Below, piece by piece: positions 11,300-43,572 of a DNA stretch of 64,000 nucleotides. This stretch comes from Methylohalobius crimeensis 10Ki (GTDB taxonomy: Bacteria > Pseudomonadota > Gammaproteobacteria > Methylococcales > Methylothermaceae): assembly GCF_000421465.1 (NCBI RefSeq), contig NZ_ATXB01000001.1:806001-870000 (forward strand), given 5' to 3'. The translations under genes and the position numbers were made by a program. Every line of letters starts with the position of its first letter. Position 1 is the stretch's first letter. The notes under the pieces were generated by a model. The model was given only the letters and a program-made list of their open reading frames with translations, did no database searches and was not told the DNA's origin.

Positions 11300-11343
11300 T
11301 GGGCCGTGTTGGATTCGAACCAACGACCATCGCATTAAAAGTG
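11300..11343 (-). repeat. Distal attachment site (displaced tRNA-Lys 3' half)
   Basis: 44 bp identical to 17225-17268, running from the discriminator base through the T arm and variable loop into the anticodon stem. It is not a tRNA gene: beyond the anticodon stem no D arm or acceptor 5' strand follows. By the usual mechanism this is the original chromosomal tRNA 3' end displaced by integration. On the tRNA strand it continues with TC rather than CCA. Confidence 0.92.
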
Positions 11344-11455
11344 GGATACCGCCCATTCCCCGTATACGCCACCACGTAACAATTCTTGGATAAACAGTAA
11401 CTTATCTTATTGCTTGTGTGGTGTCGTATTGCCGAATATCGCCCTATTTTGTGTA

Positions 11456-17221: not shown

Positions 17222-17297
17222 TGGTGGGCCGTGTTGGATTCGAACCAACGACCATCGCATTAAAAGTGCGGTGCTCTACCGACTGAGCTAACGGCCC
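17222..17297 (-). tRNA. tRNA-Lys (anticodon TTT)
   Basis: The minus strand folds as a complete 76-base tRNA with encoded CCA: acceptor GGGCCGT pairs with ACGGCCC, D arm GCTCAGTCGGTAGAGC, anticodon loop CTTTTAA with TTT at 17262-17264, and T loop GGTTCGAATCC. Its 3' half from the discriminator base into the anticodon stem is the proximal att copy, so this half is supplied by the integrated element. Confidence 0.97.
17225..17268 (-). repeat. Proximal attachment site inside tRNA-Lys
   Basis: 44 bp identical to 11300-11343. The repeat ends exactly at the discriminator base on one side and two bases into the 5' anticodon stem on the other, a usual crossover zone for tyrosine integrases that target tRNA genes. 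Confidence 0.92.
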
Positions 17298-37155: not shown

Positions 37156-39345
37156 ATGGACATTACCTCGATATTAGACCCTCTTAACGACGCTCAACGG
37201 GAAGCGGTCAGCGCACCGCTGCAACCGATGCTGGTCCTGGCCGGGGCCGGCAGCGGCAAGACCCGGGTGCTGGTCCACCGCCTGGCGTGGCTGGCGCGGG
37301 TGGAAGCGATTCCTCCCCATGCCCTGATGGCGGTCACCTTCACCAATAAAGCCGCCCGTGAAATGCGCGGAAGGGTGGAGGCCTTGCTCCGGATCGAAAC
37401 CCGGGGAATGTGGCTGGGCACCTTCCATAGCCTCGCCCATCGCTTGTTGCGCCGGCATGCCAAGGAGGCGGGGTTGCCGGACGGCTTCCAGGTGCTCGAC
37501 AGCGCCGACCAATATCGTCTGATTCGGCGCCTCATGCGCGAAATGAAACTGGACGAGGGCCGCTGGCCTCCGCGCCAGGTCCAATGGTACATCAACGCCA
37601 ACAAGGACGAAGGCCGGAGGCCCGAATACATCGTGGCCGGCGATCTGTTCGAACGCCAGATGCTGGCCATCTATCAGACCTACGAGCAACATTGCCGCCG
37701 CGCCGGCTTGGTGGATTTCGGCGGCTTGCTGTTGGGGGCGCACGAACTCCTGCGCGACCACGAAAGCCTGCTGGCGCATTACCGGCGCCGTTTCGGCCAT
37801 ATTTTGGTGGACGAATTCCAGGATACCAATACCATCCAATACGCTTGGTTGCGCCTCTTGGCGGGAGACAACGACAATCTGTTCGTGGTCGGCGACGACG
37901 ATCAATCCATCTACGGCTGGCGCGGCGCCCGGGTGGAAAACATCCGTTCCTTCCGCCAGGACTTCCCGGGTCATCGCCTGGTGCGCCTGGAGCAGAACTA
38001 CCGTTCCACCGGCCATATTCTCGATGCCGCCAATGCGCTCATCACTCACAATCGAGGCCGGATGGGCAAGAAACTTTGGACCGCCGGCGGCAAGGGCGAT
38101 CCGATTCGAGTGTACGACGCCTTCAACGATCAGGAGGAAGCGCGCTTCGTGGTCGATCGCATCCAGCAATGGCTGGAAAAGGGGCGGCGCGGGAGCGAGG
38201 CGGCGATTCTCTACCGCTCCAATGCCCAGTCGCGCCTGTTCGAAGAGCGCCTGGTGGCGGCTGGCATTCCTTATCGGGTCTACGGGGGCTTGCGCTTCTT
38301 CGAGCGCGCCGAGATCAAAAGCGCCTTGGCTTATCTGCGTTTGATCGCCAATCGCGACGACGATTCCTCCTTCGAGCGGGTGGTGAATCTTCCCACCCGC
38401 GGCATCGGCCAGCGCACCGTCGATACGATCCGCGACCACGCCCGGTCCCGCGAGACGTCGCTGTGGCGGGCCGCGAGCGACCTGTGCCGGACGCGGGCTC
38501 TGGCGGCGCGGGCCAGGGGCAGCCTGGACAAATTTTTGCAGTTGATCGACGCCCTGGACGAAACCACCCGGAACGTGTCGCTTGCCGATCAGGTCAAGCG
38601 CGTGGTGGAAGGCAGCGGCTTGATCGAGCATTACGGCAAGGAAAAGGGGGATCAGGGCGAGGCCCGGGTGGAAAACCTGAAAGAACTGGTCAACGCCGCC
38701 CGCCAATTTGTTACTTTCGACAGTGAAGACGTGGAGGACGACGACAGTCCGCTGGGCGTGTTTTTGGCCCATGCGGCATTGGAAGCCGGCGAAGCCCAGG
38801 CCGACGCGGGCGAGGACAGCGTTCAGTTGATGACGCTCCATGCGGCGAAAGGGCTGGAGTTTCCCTTGGTGTTCATGGTGGGAATGGAGGAAGGTCTGTT
38901 TCCCTCCATGCAATCGCTGGAGGATGACTCCCGACTGGAGGAGGAGCGGCGTCTGTGCTACGTGGGCATGACCCGGGCGATGGAAAGCCTGTATCTGTGC
39001 TATGCCGAATGCCGAAGGCTTTACGGGCGCGAAACCTATCCCCGCGAATCCCGTTTCCTGCGCGAGATTCCTTCCGAGTATCTGGAAGAAGTCCGGCAAA
39101 AATCGGTGAATCATCCGGTGGGGGCGCAGTACGCCCGGAAGAAGGGCGACAGCCGGCCAACCGAAGACGGGGAATCCGCAGGCGGCCTGCGCCTCGGGCA
39201 ACGGGTCAAGCACACCGCTTTCGGCGAAGGGGTCGTGCTCCAATGCGAAGGGGAGGGAAAAAATACCCGCGTCCAGGTGAATTTCGACGACGCTGGAAAA
39301 AAATGGCTGATGCTGGGATATGCCAATCTGGAGGCGGTTGAGTAA
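37156..39345 (+). CDS. uvrD: DNA helicase II
   Basis: SF1A 3'-5' helicase for nucleotide-excision and mismatch repair. Walker A is VLAGAGSGKTRVLVHRLAWL at about 28-47, Walker B is VDEFQDTNTIQYAWL, and GDDDQSIYGWRGARVENIRS and LMTLHAAKGLEFPLVFMVGM follow in order. The 729-residue length fits UvrD, and DEGRWPPRQVQWYIN and the C-terminal GVVLQ...KKWLMLGYANLE tail distinguish it from Rep. Part of its 3' end is duplicated 3.5 kb downstream. Confidence 0.96.
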   Translation: MDITSILDPLNDAQREAVSAPLQPMLVLAGAGSGKTRVLVHRLAWLARVEAIPPHALMAVTFTNKAAREMRGRVEALLRIETRGMWLGTFHSLAHRLLRRHAKEAGLPDGFQVLDSADQYRLIRRLMREMKLDEGRWPPRQVQWYINANKDEGRRPEYIVAGDLFERQMLAIYQTYEQHCRRAGLVDFGGLLLGAHELLRDHESLLAHYRRRFGHILVDEFQDTNTIQYAWLRLLAGDNDNLFVVGDDDQSIYGWRGARVENIRSFRQDFPGHRLVRLEQNYRSTGHILDAANALITHNRGRMGKKLWTAGGKGDPIRVYDAFNDQEEARFVVDRIQQWLEKGRRGSEAAILYRSNAQSRLFEERLVAAGIPYRVYGGLRFFERAEIKSALAYLRLIANRDDDSSFERVVNLPTRGIGQRTVDTIRDHARSRETSLWRAASDLCRTRALAARARGSLDKFLQLIDALDETTRNVSLADQVKRVVEGSGLIEHYGKEKGDQGEARVENLKELVNAARQFVTFDSEDVEDDDSPLGVFLAHAALEAGEAQADAGEDSVQLMTLHAAKGLEFPLVFMVGMEEGLFPSMQSLEDDSRLEEERRLCYVGMTRAMESLYLCYAECRRLYGRETYPRESRFLREIPSEYLEEVRQKSVNHPVGAQYARKKGDSRPTEDGESAGGLRLGQRVKHTAFGEGVVLQCEGEGKNTRVQVNFDDAGKKWLMLGYANLEAVE

Positions 39346-39746
39346 TCTTGTTGGTGGATAGGAGAAAGTGTGCAGCTTTTGGGTATATATTCAAGGAAAG
39401 CACAGCTTCAGTCTGACGTCATCCCTTTATCTGCATGCGCCTTGCCTTGATGCTTCACAAACGTGTCAAGCTAACTGGTAGCAGTATCTGAAAACGATAC
39501 ATCCTTGTGAAAGTGAAAAATCCTGGCTATACCTATACCTAAAAAATAATTGTTTTAAACAATGAGAACCTTTTCCTGTTGTAAGGGAAACGTGTCGGAA
39601 TGGTCGAGCCGTGTGGCGTTACGACCGGATGTGCCGGATGCTAGCGTCGTGCCCATATCTGAACAGTTTGCTGTCAGGGTGAGCAATGAAACAACTAGCC
39701 CTTGATTAGTGAATCCGACACTTCCTTCGAACCGGGAGTGATATGG
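39346..39746. other. Intergenic region of 401 bp between uvrD and the second helicase
   Basis: No gene seen. It is more AT-rich than the flanks and contains a 15-bp palindrome, ATTGTTTTAAACAAT (39549-39563), suited to an operator or promoter element. The last 15 bases hold the GGGAG ribosome site of the downstream helicase. Confidence 0.5.
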
Positions 39747-42700
39747 ATGACAACGATTACCAGAAAGATTTCATTCCGTCAGAGACTGACTGAATACGAA
39801 CGCTATGTAGAATCCATCCGACAACTTCTATGTACCCGAGTTTGGGATGCACAAGACATTGTGAGATTCAACGAGCTTGTTGATCAATCACAGCAATTTT
39901 CTGCAGAACTCGCCAACATCAAAGTTGTTTTTGTTAAGCGACTAGGCGATATCACTCAGAAAATAAAAACCGATGAATCAATTAACGAATATTTTAAAGA
40001 GCTCAAACGGGGTGCATACCAAAAAAAAGGTGGTCCTACTGTACGCGCTGGTAAAGCCCTATACGACGTATTAAAAAAGAAAGAACAAGGTATCAATGGC
40101 CTCATACGCATATGTGACTCATTGAGTGATTCCCTTGCCATATTGCGACCTAAACTACTTCAAAAGTGGGTCTTCATGCTTTTAGAAGCTGGGGACCGCG
40201 ATGGTGCGGAGAACTTCTACCAGGAACGATGTGGAGAATGGTGGCCCAGAAGCGACTATGAGGCGGCTGTAAAGCATGCCCAAGATGAACAAGCGCGAAA
40301 GGCCGCCGAAGAAGAGGCGCGCAAGCTCGCTGCGGCCCGCGAGAGGCTTCGGGAACAAGTCCGTGATTTGCTTGATGCCGCCAAGTATGTTGAGGCCGAT
40401 CGCCTGTATCAGGAACGCTGCTCCGATTGGTGGAATCGTTCCGACTACGAGGCCAGGAAAATCCGAGCGCGATTCATCCAACGCTTCAAAAAAACCTACC
40501 ACAGGGGGGCACTGGCGGAGTTGGACATGCTCTATATCAATCGACCCCCCAGCGTCCATTTTTCCATGGAAAAGTTCATCGCCCGGAAATTACCCAAAAT
40601 CCGCAATCATCTCGCGCCGATCGGCATCCAATTGGACGAAGAGCAGGAACAGGCCCTTGCGCGGCCGGAATCCCGGCTTCTGATCAAGGCACGCGCCGGT
40701 TCGGGAAAGACACGCACCTTGTGCGCTCGCGCGGTATTGACGATCCGGGATGAGAAGCTTGATCCGAATCAGGTTTTGATTCTGGCGTTCAACAAGGACG
40801 CCGCAGCCGAAGTCAGAAGTCGCGTTCAAAGAATGGCTGAGGTTCCGGATTTTGAGAACGCGCGTACTTTCCACAGCTTGGCGTACCAACTCGTCAAACC
40901 CAATAAGAAACTTCTTTTCGACGCCGGCGGTCATCCGTCCAAGCGCGAACAGGGCAGATTTGTCCAGCGCATGATGCAAAGGATTCTGAACCCTGCCTTC
41001 AAGGAGGCGATGGTGGAATTCTTTCGCAAAGAATTGGAACAGGTTAAAGACCTTGGAAGAGACCTGCCGCCTAATGAGTATTTCGTTTTCCGTCGTGCGA
41101 TGGAGATGGTGACTCTGGGAGGCGATCGGGTGAAGTCCAACGGGGAGAAATTCATCGCCGATTTTTTGTTCGAACATGGCATCGAGTATCGCTACGAGCG
41201 AGCCTGGCAATGGAAAAGCGATTTCCTCGATGGCGGGGCCTACAGGCCGGATTTCTCGATTGTCGCAAACGGCAGGGACTATATCCTCGAACACTGGGCG
41301 ATCGACCCGGACGACCGCTCCGCGGAGGTGCCGGAACACTGGGATATTTCGACGGATCAATACCGGCGACAGATTCACGCCAAACGAAGGTTTTGGCAAT
41401 CCAGGGGCATACCACTGCTCGAAACACATGCCGGCCTGATACGAGAAGGTCGCGAGGCATTCGAGCGTCGATTGGGAAGCATTCTTCAGCGTGCCGGTAT
41501 TCCGTGCAGGCGACTGCCAAAAGAGGAGATTGTGCGTCGCGTCTTCGAGAATGATTTTGCGATTTCGCGTATGGCAAAGCTCTTCCAGCAGTTTATCCAG
41601 CGCGCCAAGAAGCGCGGTTGGACGCCCAACGAAGTAGTGCGGCGCTTCACGGAGGCGCCTGACAGGGAGCCTCGCACCCGGCTTTTCCATCAACTCGCCT
41701 TGCGCGCCTACCGTGAATACGAGGCAGTGTTGGAGGAGCGGCAGGCGATGGATTTCGATGACTTGCTCGTGCAGGCCGTCGAAGAAGTGGAAGCGCGCGG
41801 AGCGTCGGCCAGCATTCACCTCGGCCAAGGCTGCATGTTTCCAATCAGCTATCTGAAATGGATTCTTCTGGACGAATATCAGGATTTTTCCGAGCTGTAC
41901 TTCAGGATGCTGAACGCCATCCTGAAGGCCAAACCCGACATTCGCCTGGTGGCGGTCGGAGACGATTGGCAAGCCATCAACGGCTTCGCGGGTGCGGAAC
42001 CCCGTTTTTTCGAGCGATTCGCGGACTATTTTCCCGGTGCCGAGTCGGTGGGGGTCACGACCAACTACCGGAGCGATCGGGCGGTGGTCGGTGCGGGAAA
42101 CCGTCTCATGGACGGCCGGGGTAGCCCGGCAAAGGTCAGTCGGTCGGCAGAAGGAAAGATCGAGATCAAATATCTTGGCGATGTCTGGATCGAGTTCCGG
42201 CAGGGCGAACCGTTCCAGCAGGAACGTGAGTCGGATGCACTCTACCTTCCACCCCGGCCCGAAGGGAGGAACCCATCGGAACGCGCATTAAAGCAGGCAC
42301 AAGCTTTGAAACAGTGTGCGGAAATCATTCTCGAGGCGCCCGACCAAACAACCATGTTGCTGGCTCGGACCAACAAGGTCTATGGCATCGAGTTGGATCA
42401 ATTTAAGGATCGGTTGATTGAAGTCTTGTGCGCCCTGCGAAAGGAAATCGCGGCGGACCTGGAGAAAAGCATCGCCACGGCGACTGCGCATCGATCGAAA
42501 GGCCGGGAAGCGCACAGGGTCATTATCCTGGACGCCACGCAGCGGCAATTCCCGAAGCTTCATCCCGACAATTTCCTATTTAAACTGTTCGGCGTCACGC
42601 CGCACGCCGTGCTTGAAGAGGAGAGGCGACTATTTTATGTCGCCTTGACGCGCGCCGAACACGATTTGTACATATTGACGGAAAAGGGAGAGGAGTCCCC

Positions 42701-42794
42701 TTTTATTGAGGAGATCTACGACCAGGAAAGTCATTCTGGAAAATCTCGTTTTCTGCGAGAGATTCCTTCCGAGCATTTGGAAGATGTCTGGTAA
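39747..42794 (+). CDS. UvrD-like helicase with embedded nuclease-like domain and N-terminal repeats
   Basis: A 1015-residue SF1 helicase unlike the housekeeping UvrD beside it. Residues 1-290 are helical and include two copies of YQERCxxWWxRSDYEA (about 157 and 219). Walker A is KARAGSGKTRTLCARA (about 312). Between motor segments, GEKFIADFLFEHGIEYRYER, YRPDFSI and ILEHWAI (about 475-520) match a PD-(D/E)XK-like fold. The Walker B is LLDEYQDFSELY (about 708), and RLFYVALTRAEHDLYILTEK is near the end. Start at the ATG at 39747 behind GGGAG. The last residues, RFLREIPSEHLEDVW, copy the UvrD tail. DNA repair or phage defence are both possible. Confidence 0.8.
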   Translation: MTTITRKISFRQRLTEYERYVESIRQLLCTRVWDAQDIVRFNELVDQSQQFSAELANIKVVFVKRLGDITQKIKTDESINEYFKELKRGAYQKKGGPTVRAGKALYDVLKKKEQGINGLIRICDSLSDSLAILRPKLLQKWVFMLLEAGDRDGAENFYQERCGEWWPRSDYEAAVKHAQDEQARKAAEEEARKLAAARERLREQVRDLLDAAKYVEADRLYQERCSDWWNRSDYEARKIRARFIQRFKKTYHRGALAELDMLYINRPPSVHFSMEKFIARKLPKIRNHLAPIGIQLDEEQEQALARPESRLLIKARAGSGKTRTLCARAVLTIRDEKLDPNQVLILAFNKDAAAEVRSRVQRMAEVPDFENARTFHSLAYQLVKPNKKLLFDAGGHPSKREQGRFVQRMMQRILNPAFKEAMVEFFRKELEQVKDLGRDLPPNEYFVFRRAMEMVTLGGDRVKSNGEKFIADFLFEHGIEYRYERAWQWKSDFLDGGAYRPDFSIVANGRDYILEHWAIDPDDRSAEVPEHWDISTDQYRRQIHAKRRFWQSRGIPLLETHAGLIREGREAFERRLGSILQRAGIPCRRLPKEEIVRRVFENDFAISRMAKLFQQFIQRAKKRGWTPNEVVRRFTEAPDREPRTRLFHQLALRAYREYEAVLEERQAMDFDDLLVQAVEEVEARGASASIHLGQGCMFPISYLKWILLDEYQDFSELYFRMLNAILKAKPDIRLVAVGDDWQAINGFAGAEPRFFERFADYFPGAESVGVTTNYRSDRAVVGAGNRLMDGRGSPAKVSRSAEGKIEIKYLGDVWIEFRQGEPFQQERESDALYLPPRPEGRNPSERALKQAQALKQCAEIILEAPDQTTMLLARTNKVYGIELDQFKDRLIEVLCALRKEIAADLEKSIATATAHRSKGREAHRVIILDATQRQFPKLHPDNFLFKLFGVTPHAVLEEERRLFYVALTRAEHDLYILTEKGEESPFIEEIYDQESHSGKSRFLREIPSEHLEDVW

Positions 42795-42846
42795 AAATTA
42801 GGGAGTCGGACGATGGGGTGTCGTCTTACCGAAAGGCGGGCGGATA

Positions 42847-42894
42847 AAGTGGCTGATGCTGGGGTATGCCAATTTGGAGACGATGGGGGAATAG
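42847..42894 (+). pseudogene. Remnant of a uvrD 3' end
   Basis: Reads KWLMLGYANLE then TMGE and a stop, against KWLMLGYANLEAVE at the uvrD terminus; 28 of 30 bases from 42850 match 39304-39333. It lies downstream of the second helicase stop, has no start, and the stretch between it and that stop retains only a trace of the uvrD tail (a GVVL segment). It is a broken duplicate of uvrD tail DNA. Confidence 0.75.
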
Positions 42895-42918
42895 GTTTCT
42901 TCGGTGTATGCTGGCTTG

Positions 42919-43410
42919 CTACGAATCGGTTCGCCGGGGTTGGATAAGATAGGGGATTTCCAAGTTAGAATTTTTTTGGCTGGCCTTGGCCCCCTTGCAG
43001 TCGATGGGAGTAAGGGAGGTGGTTCCTGAAAATCCGGATTGATTCCACCAAGCTCCATTTCCGGCCAGAGTCTCCGGATCGAGCAGAATCTTGAACGATA
43101 CGCCCACACACATTCCGGGCTCGTTGGCCGCCCCCCACAGGCCGACGGTCACGAAGCTTTCGGAAATAGTGGCGGTGCCGGTCAAGGGCACTCTATTGGA
43201 ACTGCCGCAGGTACCCTCCGGAAGGAGTTGGTAGCCATGCACCTCGAAAGTTTCGTTCGAAAAACTCCCCACATTCAGCACCCAAATGCTGGGTCCGGTG
43301 CTCCAGCACATTCGGGTCAACGGTTCTCCGGCATGGCTTGCCGTCGCCATACCCAGCCAAAGGATTGCGGTCAATAGCGTGACTTGCCCGTTTTTATTGC
43401 TTCCCAACAT
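42919..43410 (-). CDS. Secreted protein of unknown function
   Basis: A 163-residue protein with a signal peptide (about 10-29, cut after SHA) and four Cys that could form two disulfides (in RMCWSTG, EGTCGSS, PGMCVGV and PIDCKGA). I do not recognise the family. I chose the ATG at 43410 because GGAGG lies six bases upstream. Its neighbours do not suggest a role. Confidence 0.65.
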   Translation of the reverse strand: MLGSNKNGQVTLLTAILWLGMATASHAGEPLTRMCWSTGPSIWVLNVGSFSNETFEVHGYQLLPEGTCGSSNRVPLTGTATISESFVTVGLWGAANEPGMCVGVSFKILLDPETLAGNGAWWNQSGFSGTTSLTPIDCKGAKASQKNSNLEIPYLIQPRRTDS

Positions 43411-43572
43411 AATCAACCTCCGTCCGGAAAGGTTCCCGTATCGGTTGTTTCTGCTCCGCCATCCCCTTTCTGTTGCCGATCTCCTTATGTTTTCTAGCTT
43501 GAAAGATAATTCTCTGAATTGGCGTGTCAGTTTATAATAAATAAGATAACCTTTGCATTCCGAGCGAGACGG

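Follow-up and report, generated by a model that had tools for sequence, protein, structure and literature searches.

The window analyzed here, a 64,000-nucleotide stretch of the genome of Methylohalobius crimeensis 10Ki (contig NZ_ATXB01000001.1, positions 806,001 to 870,000), carries beside its housekeeping uvrD gene an intact gene for a 1015-residue UvrD-type helicase with a predicted nuclease domain set into the motor. On balance, we favor the view that the gene was horizontally acquired and encodes an accessory helicase-nuclease acting against invading DNA as a single protein. Its two closest relatives are found amid antiviral defense genes, and for this reason the protein is most likely an accessory defense enzyme now working alone.

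A nuclease-like domain within the helicase motor

The open reading frame begins with ATG, and GGGAG is located about 8 nucleotides upstream. The Pfam domains UvrD-helicase (PF00580) and UvrD_C (PF13361) were matched above cut-off by residues 296 to 762 (137.5 bits) and 899 to 978 (53.3 bits), and with motifs I to VI visible in alignments, the protein belongs to the UvrD/Rep helicases of superfamily 1A (SF1A). An earlier note on this DNA, made from the letters alone, had correctly counted about 290 residues ahead of the motor. It had also described a PD-(D/E)XK-like segment between the motor halves; the segment itself was borne out by an alignment of 23 sequences, an AlphaFold2 model, and structural matches, but its placement was not. 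Motif II (residues 707-714) follows the insert, and the nuclease domain therefore lies within the first RecA half, at the 1B position.

The aligned sequences come from Cyanobacteria, Poribacteria, Pseudomonadota, Patescibacteria-type lineages, and further groups. Throughout them, the glutamates E467 and E515 were invariant, and D502, K546, and R547 were each kept in at least 90%. The acidic residues of the E...PD...D/E pattern (E467, D502, and E515) are thus conserved, and the family-wide loss of acids that the earlier note had named as counting against its proposal was not seen. The insert was modeled with a predicted local distance difference test score (pLDDT) of 84 and a predicted template modeling score of 0.81, and its core of helix, three strands, helix, and strand follows the PD-(D/E)XK order. 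VIA-align matched the model to the catalytic domain of I-Bth0305I (Z 10.4, 97 aligned, 2.5 Å), Vsr (Z 9.5, 129 aligned, 4.2 Å), TnsA (Z 8.2, 107 aligned, 3.1 Å), and VRR_NUC (Z 7.7). The Foldseek E-values for the insert were weak by themselves (best 0.005), and no Pfam match reached cut-off for either the insert or the N-terminal repeats described below. From the model and the VIA-align matches, the insert is, by prediction, a PD-(D/E)XK fold of the Vsr/I-Bth0305I/TnsA type.

The insert is like that group in its predicted fold (Z 8-10) and its E...PD...E residues, and differs in sitting inside an SF1A motor and in reading E515-H-W in place of the canonical (D/E)XK, the conserved K546 and R547 being found one helix later. 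The lysine of this motif is missing from many true PD-(D/E)XK members. Because it is not in its canonical place here, cleavage of DNA by the insert is predicted as likely but not certain. The insert could instead be a catalytically dead fold serving only in DNA binding, the protein then being a helicase or a sensor compatible with either defense or repair. The canonical ExK position without lysine speaks for this, as do the inactive nuclease folds known from BrxHII/RapA-type helicases (PMC12839542), yet we judge it unlikely when the two glutamates are invariant and P-D502 is so widely kept across 23 diverse sequences, with K546/R547 on the next helix conserved as well.

The ratio of nonsynonymous to synonymous differences (pN/pS) was 0.24 across residues 130 to 985 against the nearest relative, indicating purifying selection. 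Against a plasmid-borne relative described below, the values were 0.16-0.19 for the motor and 0.19 for the nuclease domain; these are rough values, with synonymous divergence near saturation and most of the divergence from the plasmid relative older than the insertion of the gene. Selection on the nuclease domain is roughly equal in strength to selection on the motor, which favors a working domain in the family. The window copy retains all helicase motifs and nuclease residues.

Insertion beside uvrD

The upstream neighbor is a housekeeping uvrD, as the earlier note had it: the gene is 72-81% identical in eight congeners and is present as split fragments of 79-91% identity in a ninth (G005). 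No close homologue of the helicase-nuclease was found in any of the nine, and the conserved chromosomal place that the earlier note had set against its own proposal was accordingly not observed. In G005, the end of uvrD is followed about 970 bp on by the same dehydrogenase gene, with the helicase absent. The region downstream of uvrD (window 39346-43572) holds an aldehyde dehydrogenase, a transposase-like gene, or two small coiled-coil open reading frames in different congeners, and is therefore a variable site in the genus.

The 3' end of the helicase gene carries a second copy of the uvrD 3' end. Positions 42717-42818 repeat 39022-39123 over 102 nucleotides at 73% identity (core 49/57 identical), and 42846-42892 repeat 39300-39346 at 83%, with the order kept and about 149 bp lost between the two matching pieces. 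The two copies are more alike to each other than either is to the congeners. Taken together, the uvrD-end duplicate, the absence of the gene from nine congeners, and the helicase-less site of G005 indicate that the gene was inserted where uvrD ends and that uvrD sequence took the place of its original C-terminus. The protein and the neighboring UvrD have the tail SRFLREIPSE in common. We considered this ending as a natural UvrD-family C-terminus and rejected it, since neither of the two closest relatives has it and the similarity to uvrD runs beyond the stop codon; the tail is therefore captured uvrD sequence. No integrase was recognized beside the gene.

Relatives in defense loci

The window gene groups 100/100 with a gene from a Sulfuriferula metagenome-assembled genome (L008; 58% identical) and one from a Ca. 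Tenderia plasmid (L063; 68-70%). The Sulfuriferula helicase belongs to a BREX type I locus, with PglZ, PglX, and BrxL, in the order AbiEi-AbiEii-PglX-ATPase/DUF4276-DUF1016-SduA-helicase-PglZ-BrxL; it stands between SduA (Shedu) and PglZ, and its reading frame overlaps pglZ. The plasmid helicase lies about 3.4 kb from SspA. Among distant members, one follows BrxC-PglX in a Hydrogenophilales BREX locus (L017), one has a type I R subunit on one side and a type IV enzyme on the other (L010), one adjoins a type IIG enzyme (L109), and one is near DrmA/DrmB (L111). The BREX position arose at least two times on the tree, two separate changes being required.

Across the Sulfuriferula locus (L008:417-17387), AbiEi/AbiEii, a PDC-M25 ATPase/DUF4276 pair, a DUF1016 nuclease, Shedu, and the helicase-nuclease are packed around PglX, ahead of PglZ-BrxL. 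On the plasmid island (L063:851-26477), SspABCD and an Hma-like helicase/methylase pair flank the helicase gene. In the Hydrogenophilales locus (L017:12718-14235), the gene directly after the helicase encodes another P-loop helicase (AAA_11; MkoA-like in PADLOC).

The close clade is very rare: among 369 genomes of the class a single further one carries it, and 397 additional genomes of the phylum have none. Two scans of viral contigs found no relative. Of ten control proteins, eight were encoded close to uvrD in congeners and two close to the window gene; the only hit among them, to an ABC-ATPase, is likely spurious. The earlier note had likened the gene to helicase-nucleases at variable sites, which are often antiphage, and had proposed a survey of neighborhoods for defense islands. 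The variable site and the defense loci of the two closest relatives make an antiphage role plausible, while members of the wider family also occur outside such islands.

An accessory DNA-repair helicase, similar to helicase IV with an added nuclease, could also have been spread by mobile elements to process stalled forks or ends of host or plasmid DNA, with no antiviral role. The closest curated helicase model is indeed that of E. coli DNA helicase IV (HelD), an SF1A enzyme with which the protein has the motor motifs GDDWQAI and EERRL.YVALTRA in common. Some members of the wider family stand alone on plasmids, one near an umuD-like gene and another near UvrX, and a site near clpC recurs in Nostoc. 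The match to helicase IV (NF008276) is, however, 187.1 bits and far under the cut-off of 543, HelD has another N-terminus and no nuclease insert, and both nearest relatives, like several distant members, are within or beside defense loci. We therefore consider a purely repair-related role rather improbable. In Nostoc (L015, L029, and L031), the distant homologue repeatedly found downstream of clpC is apparently vertically inherited.

An N-terminal arm of tandem helical repeats

Two copies of the motif YQERCxxWWxRSDYEA, reported in the earlier note, are present as YQERCGEWWPRSDYEA (residues 158-173) and YQERCSDWWNRSDYEA (residues 221-236). The second copy begins 63 residues after the first, a period that the predicted helices share; residues ~131-245 were modeled as two helical units, mostly with pLDDT above 90. 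The repeat had been described as novel, yet it extends beyond this protein. A module of the form LLxxLxxxFxxDFLxADxFYxxxCxxxxSxxEYxxEKxxFVxxW precedes the motor across the wider family, and a profile built from distant members only matched the window protein at 21.4 bits in two hits, one per repeat (15.0 and 4.3 bits); the highest score in 1000 shuffles was 8.0 bits. The repeats are thus most likely a tandem duplication of the family pre-motor module. Their sequence has diverged more quickly than that of the motor (49% versus 74-79% identity to the plasmid relative).

Of the N-terminal arm, only residues 1 to ~125 are orphan: no match to them turned up in plasmids, in phages, or among 273 further genomes of the class. 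The two close relatives carry a Tudor-like N-terminus where the window protein has these orphan ~127 residues. Structural matches to residues 1-322 were generic helical or tetratricopeptide repeat (TPR)-like only (best Z 6.8), so we claim no fold for this region.

Table 1. Positions of the helicase-nuclease gene, its parts, and the adjoining uvrD sequences in the window.
Feature	Position	Strand	Basis
Gene for 1015-residue SF1A helicase with internal PD-(D/E)XK-type domain, intact	39747..42794	+	Open reading frame and Pfam domains; purifying selection
N-terminal ~127 residues, low-confidence helical prediction, no homologue found	39747..40127	+	pLDDT mostly 40-67
Helical repeat module 1, residues 128-190; YQERCGEWWPRSDYEA at 40218-40265	40128..40316	+	Helices 128-147, 151-162, 168-210; family pre-motor profile match
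Helical repeat module 2, residues 191-264; YQERCSDWWNRSDYEA at 40407-40454	40317..40538	+	Helices 214-225, 231-264; pLDDT to 97; best pre-motor profile match 15.0 bits
Walker A/motif I, IKARAGSGKTR, residues 313-323, K321	40683..40715	+	Pfam and alignments
Predicted PD-(D/E)XK-type insert, residues ~455-590, 1B position	41109..41516	+	23-sequence alignment, AlphaFold2 model, structural matches
Insert residues E467; D502; E515; K546-R547	41145-41147; 41250-41252; 41289-41291; 41382-41387	+	Alignment
Motif II, LLDEYQDF, residues 707-714, C-terminal to insert	41865..41888	+	Alignments
Housekeeping uvrD, insertion neighbor and source of tail duplicate	37156..39345	+	Congener comparison
Last ~25 codons, from duplicated uvrD 3' end (IYDQESHSGKSRFLREIPSEHLEDVW)	42717..42794	+	Repeat with uvrD 3' end
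Non-coding remainder of decayed uvrD 3' end, ~149-bp internal deletion	42795..42892	+	Match to 39300-39346

Elsewhere in the window, two tRNA-Lys(TTT) genes (11300-11372 and 17222-17297) lie about 5.9 kb apart.

Discussion

Several observations weigh against a defensive role for the window gene. The displaced lysine of the insert makes cutting uncertain. No defense genes adjoin the window copy, whose neighbors are uvrD and a gene for a 165-residue protein without a Pfam or PADLOC match, and it has lost both the Tudor-like N-terminus and the original C-terminal tail seen in its relatives. PglZ is absent from the genome (no PF08665 match), and the gene is therefore a BREX-less orphan. Many Nostoc, Poribacteria, and plasmid members are not beside recognizable defense genes, as read by eye or from annotation, with part of the loci scanned. 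With family members found away from defense genes, the defense context may reflect general mobility. The gene could also be a captured passenger that once served as a subunit in a BREX- or Ssp-linked defense locus and is now non-functional, its partners and both native termini having been lost. This would suit a genome without PglZ and a C-terminus running into a decayed uvrD fragment, yet it is quite improbable given 1015 intact codons, the retention of every helicase motif and of the nuclease residues, and the low pN/pS that the motor and the nuclease show in comparison with the plasmid relative, although most of that divergence predates the insertion.

We thus continue to favor an accessory anti-invader helicase-nuclease, for which we infer the antiviral role, the nuclease activity, the loading site, and the ability of the orphan copy to work without BREX or Ssp partners. 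In such an enzyme, the SF1A motor, like UvrD and helicase IV, would hold the Vsr-like nuclease in subdomain 1B, near the presumed entry of duplex DNA, with an arm of two TPR-like helical repeats preceding the motor. The motor would load where incoming DNA has an end, a gap, or a nick, the nicks in the BREX relatives possibly being made by PglZ. It would then translocate and unwind, the built-in nuclease cutting at the fork, while the helical arm may dock a partner or sense the substrate. More tentatively, the gene may represent an unnamed family of self-sufficient defense effectors, UvrD-type helicases whose subdomain 1B holds a Vsr-like nuclease and whose arm is built of helical repeats, that was repeatedly recruited to BREX, Ssp, DISARM, and restriction loci and is able to work as an orphan.

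UvrD-type helicases are described in Gabija and other systems (PMC10952713). The best PADLOC matches of the window protein were Gabija GajB (160 bits) and RTasHel (144 bits), UvrD-like motors used in defense. These matches span only the motor and not the nuclease insert, and membership in Gabija was rejected because no gene for GajA (ATPase-TOPRIM), with which GajB works, is adjacent. ArmD of ARMADA is a UvrD/GajB-like helicase of a multi-helicase defense system, and the part of PMC12458937 covered describes no internal PD-(D/E)XK domain in it.

PMC12839542 describes auxiliary nucleases and Tudor-bearing superfamily 2 (SF2) helicases in BREX. The Tudor-like N-terminus is common to BrxHII, BREX-related helicases, and the close relatives of the window gene, and these relatives sit in a BREX or Ssp locus. 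BrxHI and BrxHII have an SF2 motor, of the Swi2/Snf2 kind in BrxHII-type helicases, whereas the window protein is an SF1A UvrD-type helicase in a genome without BREX and is not a member of that group; UvrD is not mentioned in the main text of PMC12839542. Within the narrow set of literature covered in part, including PMC10952713, PMC12458937, and PMC12839542, an SF1A motor with a nuclease inside subdomain 1B is an undescribed arrangement.

In PMC12839542, BREX is proposed to carry auxiliary nuclease effectors besides PglZ. In one relative, the reading frame of this UvrD-type helicase-nuclease overlaps pglZ, and a family member occurs independently in another BREX locus. The enzyme thus offers a specific, testable candidate for such an effector, and the orphan copy of M. 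crimeensis would permit its testing apart from the rest of BREX.
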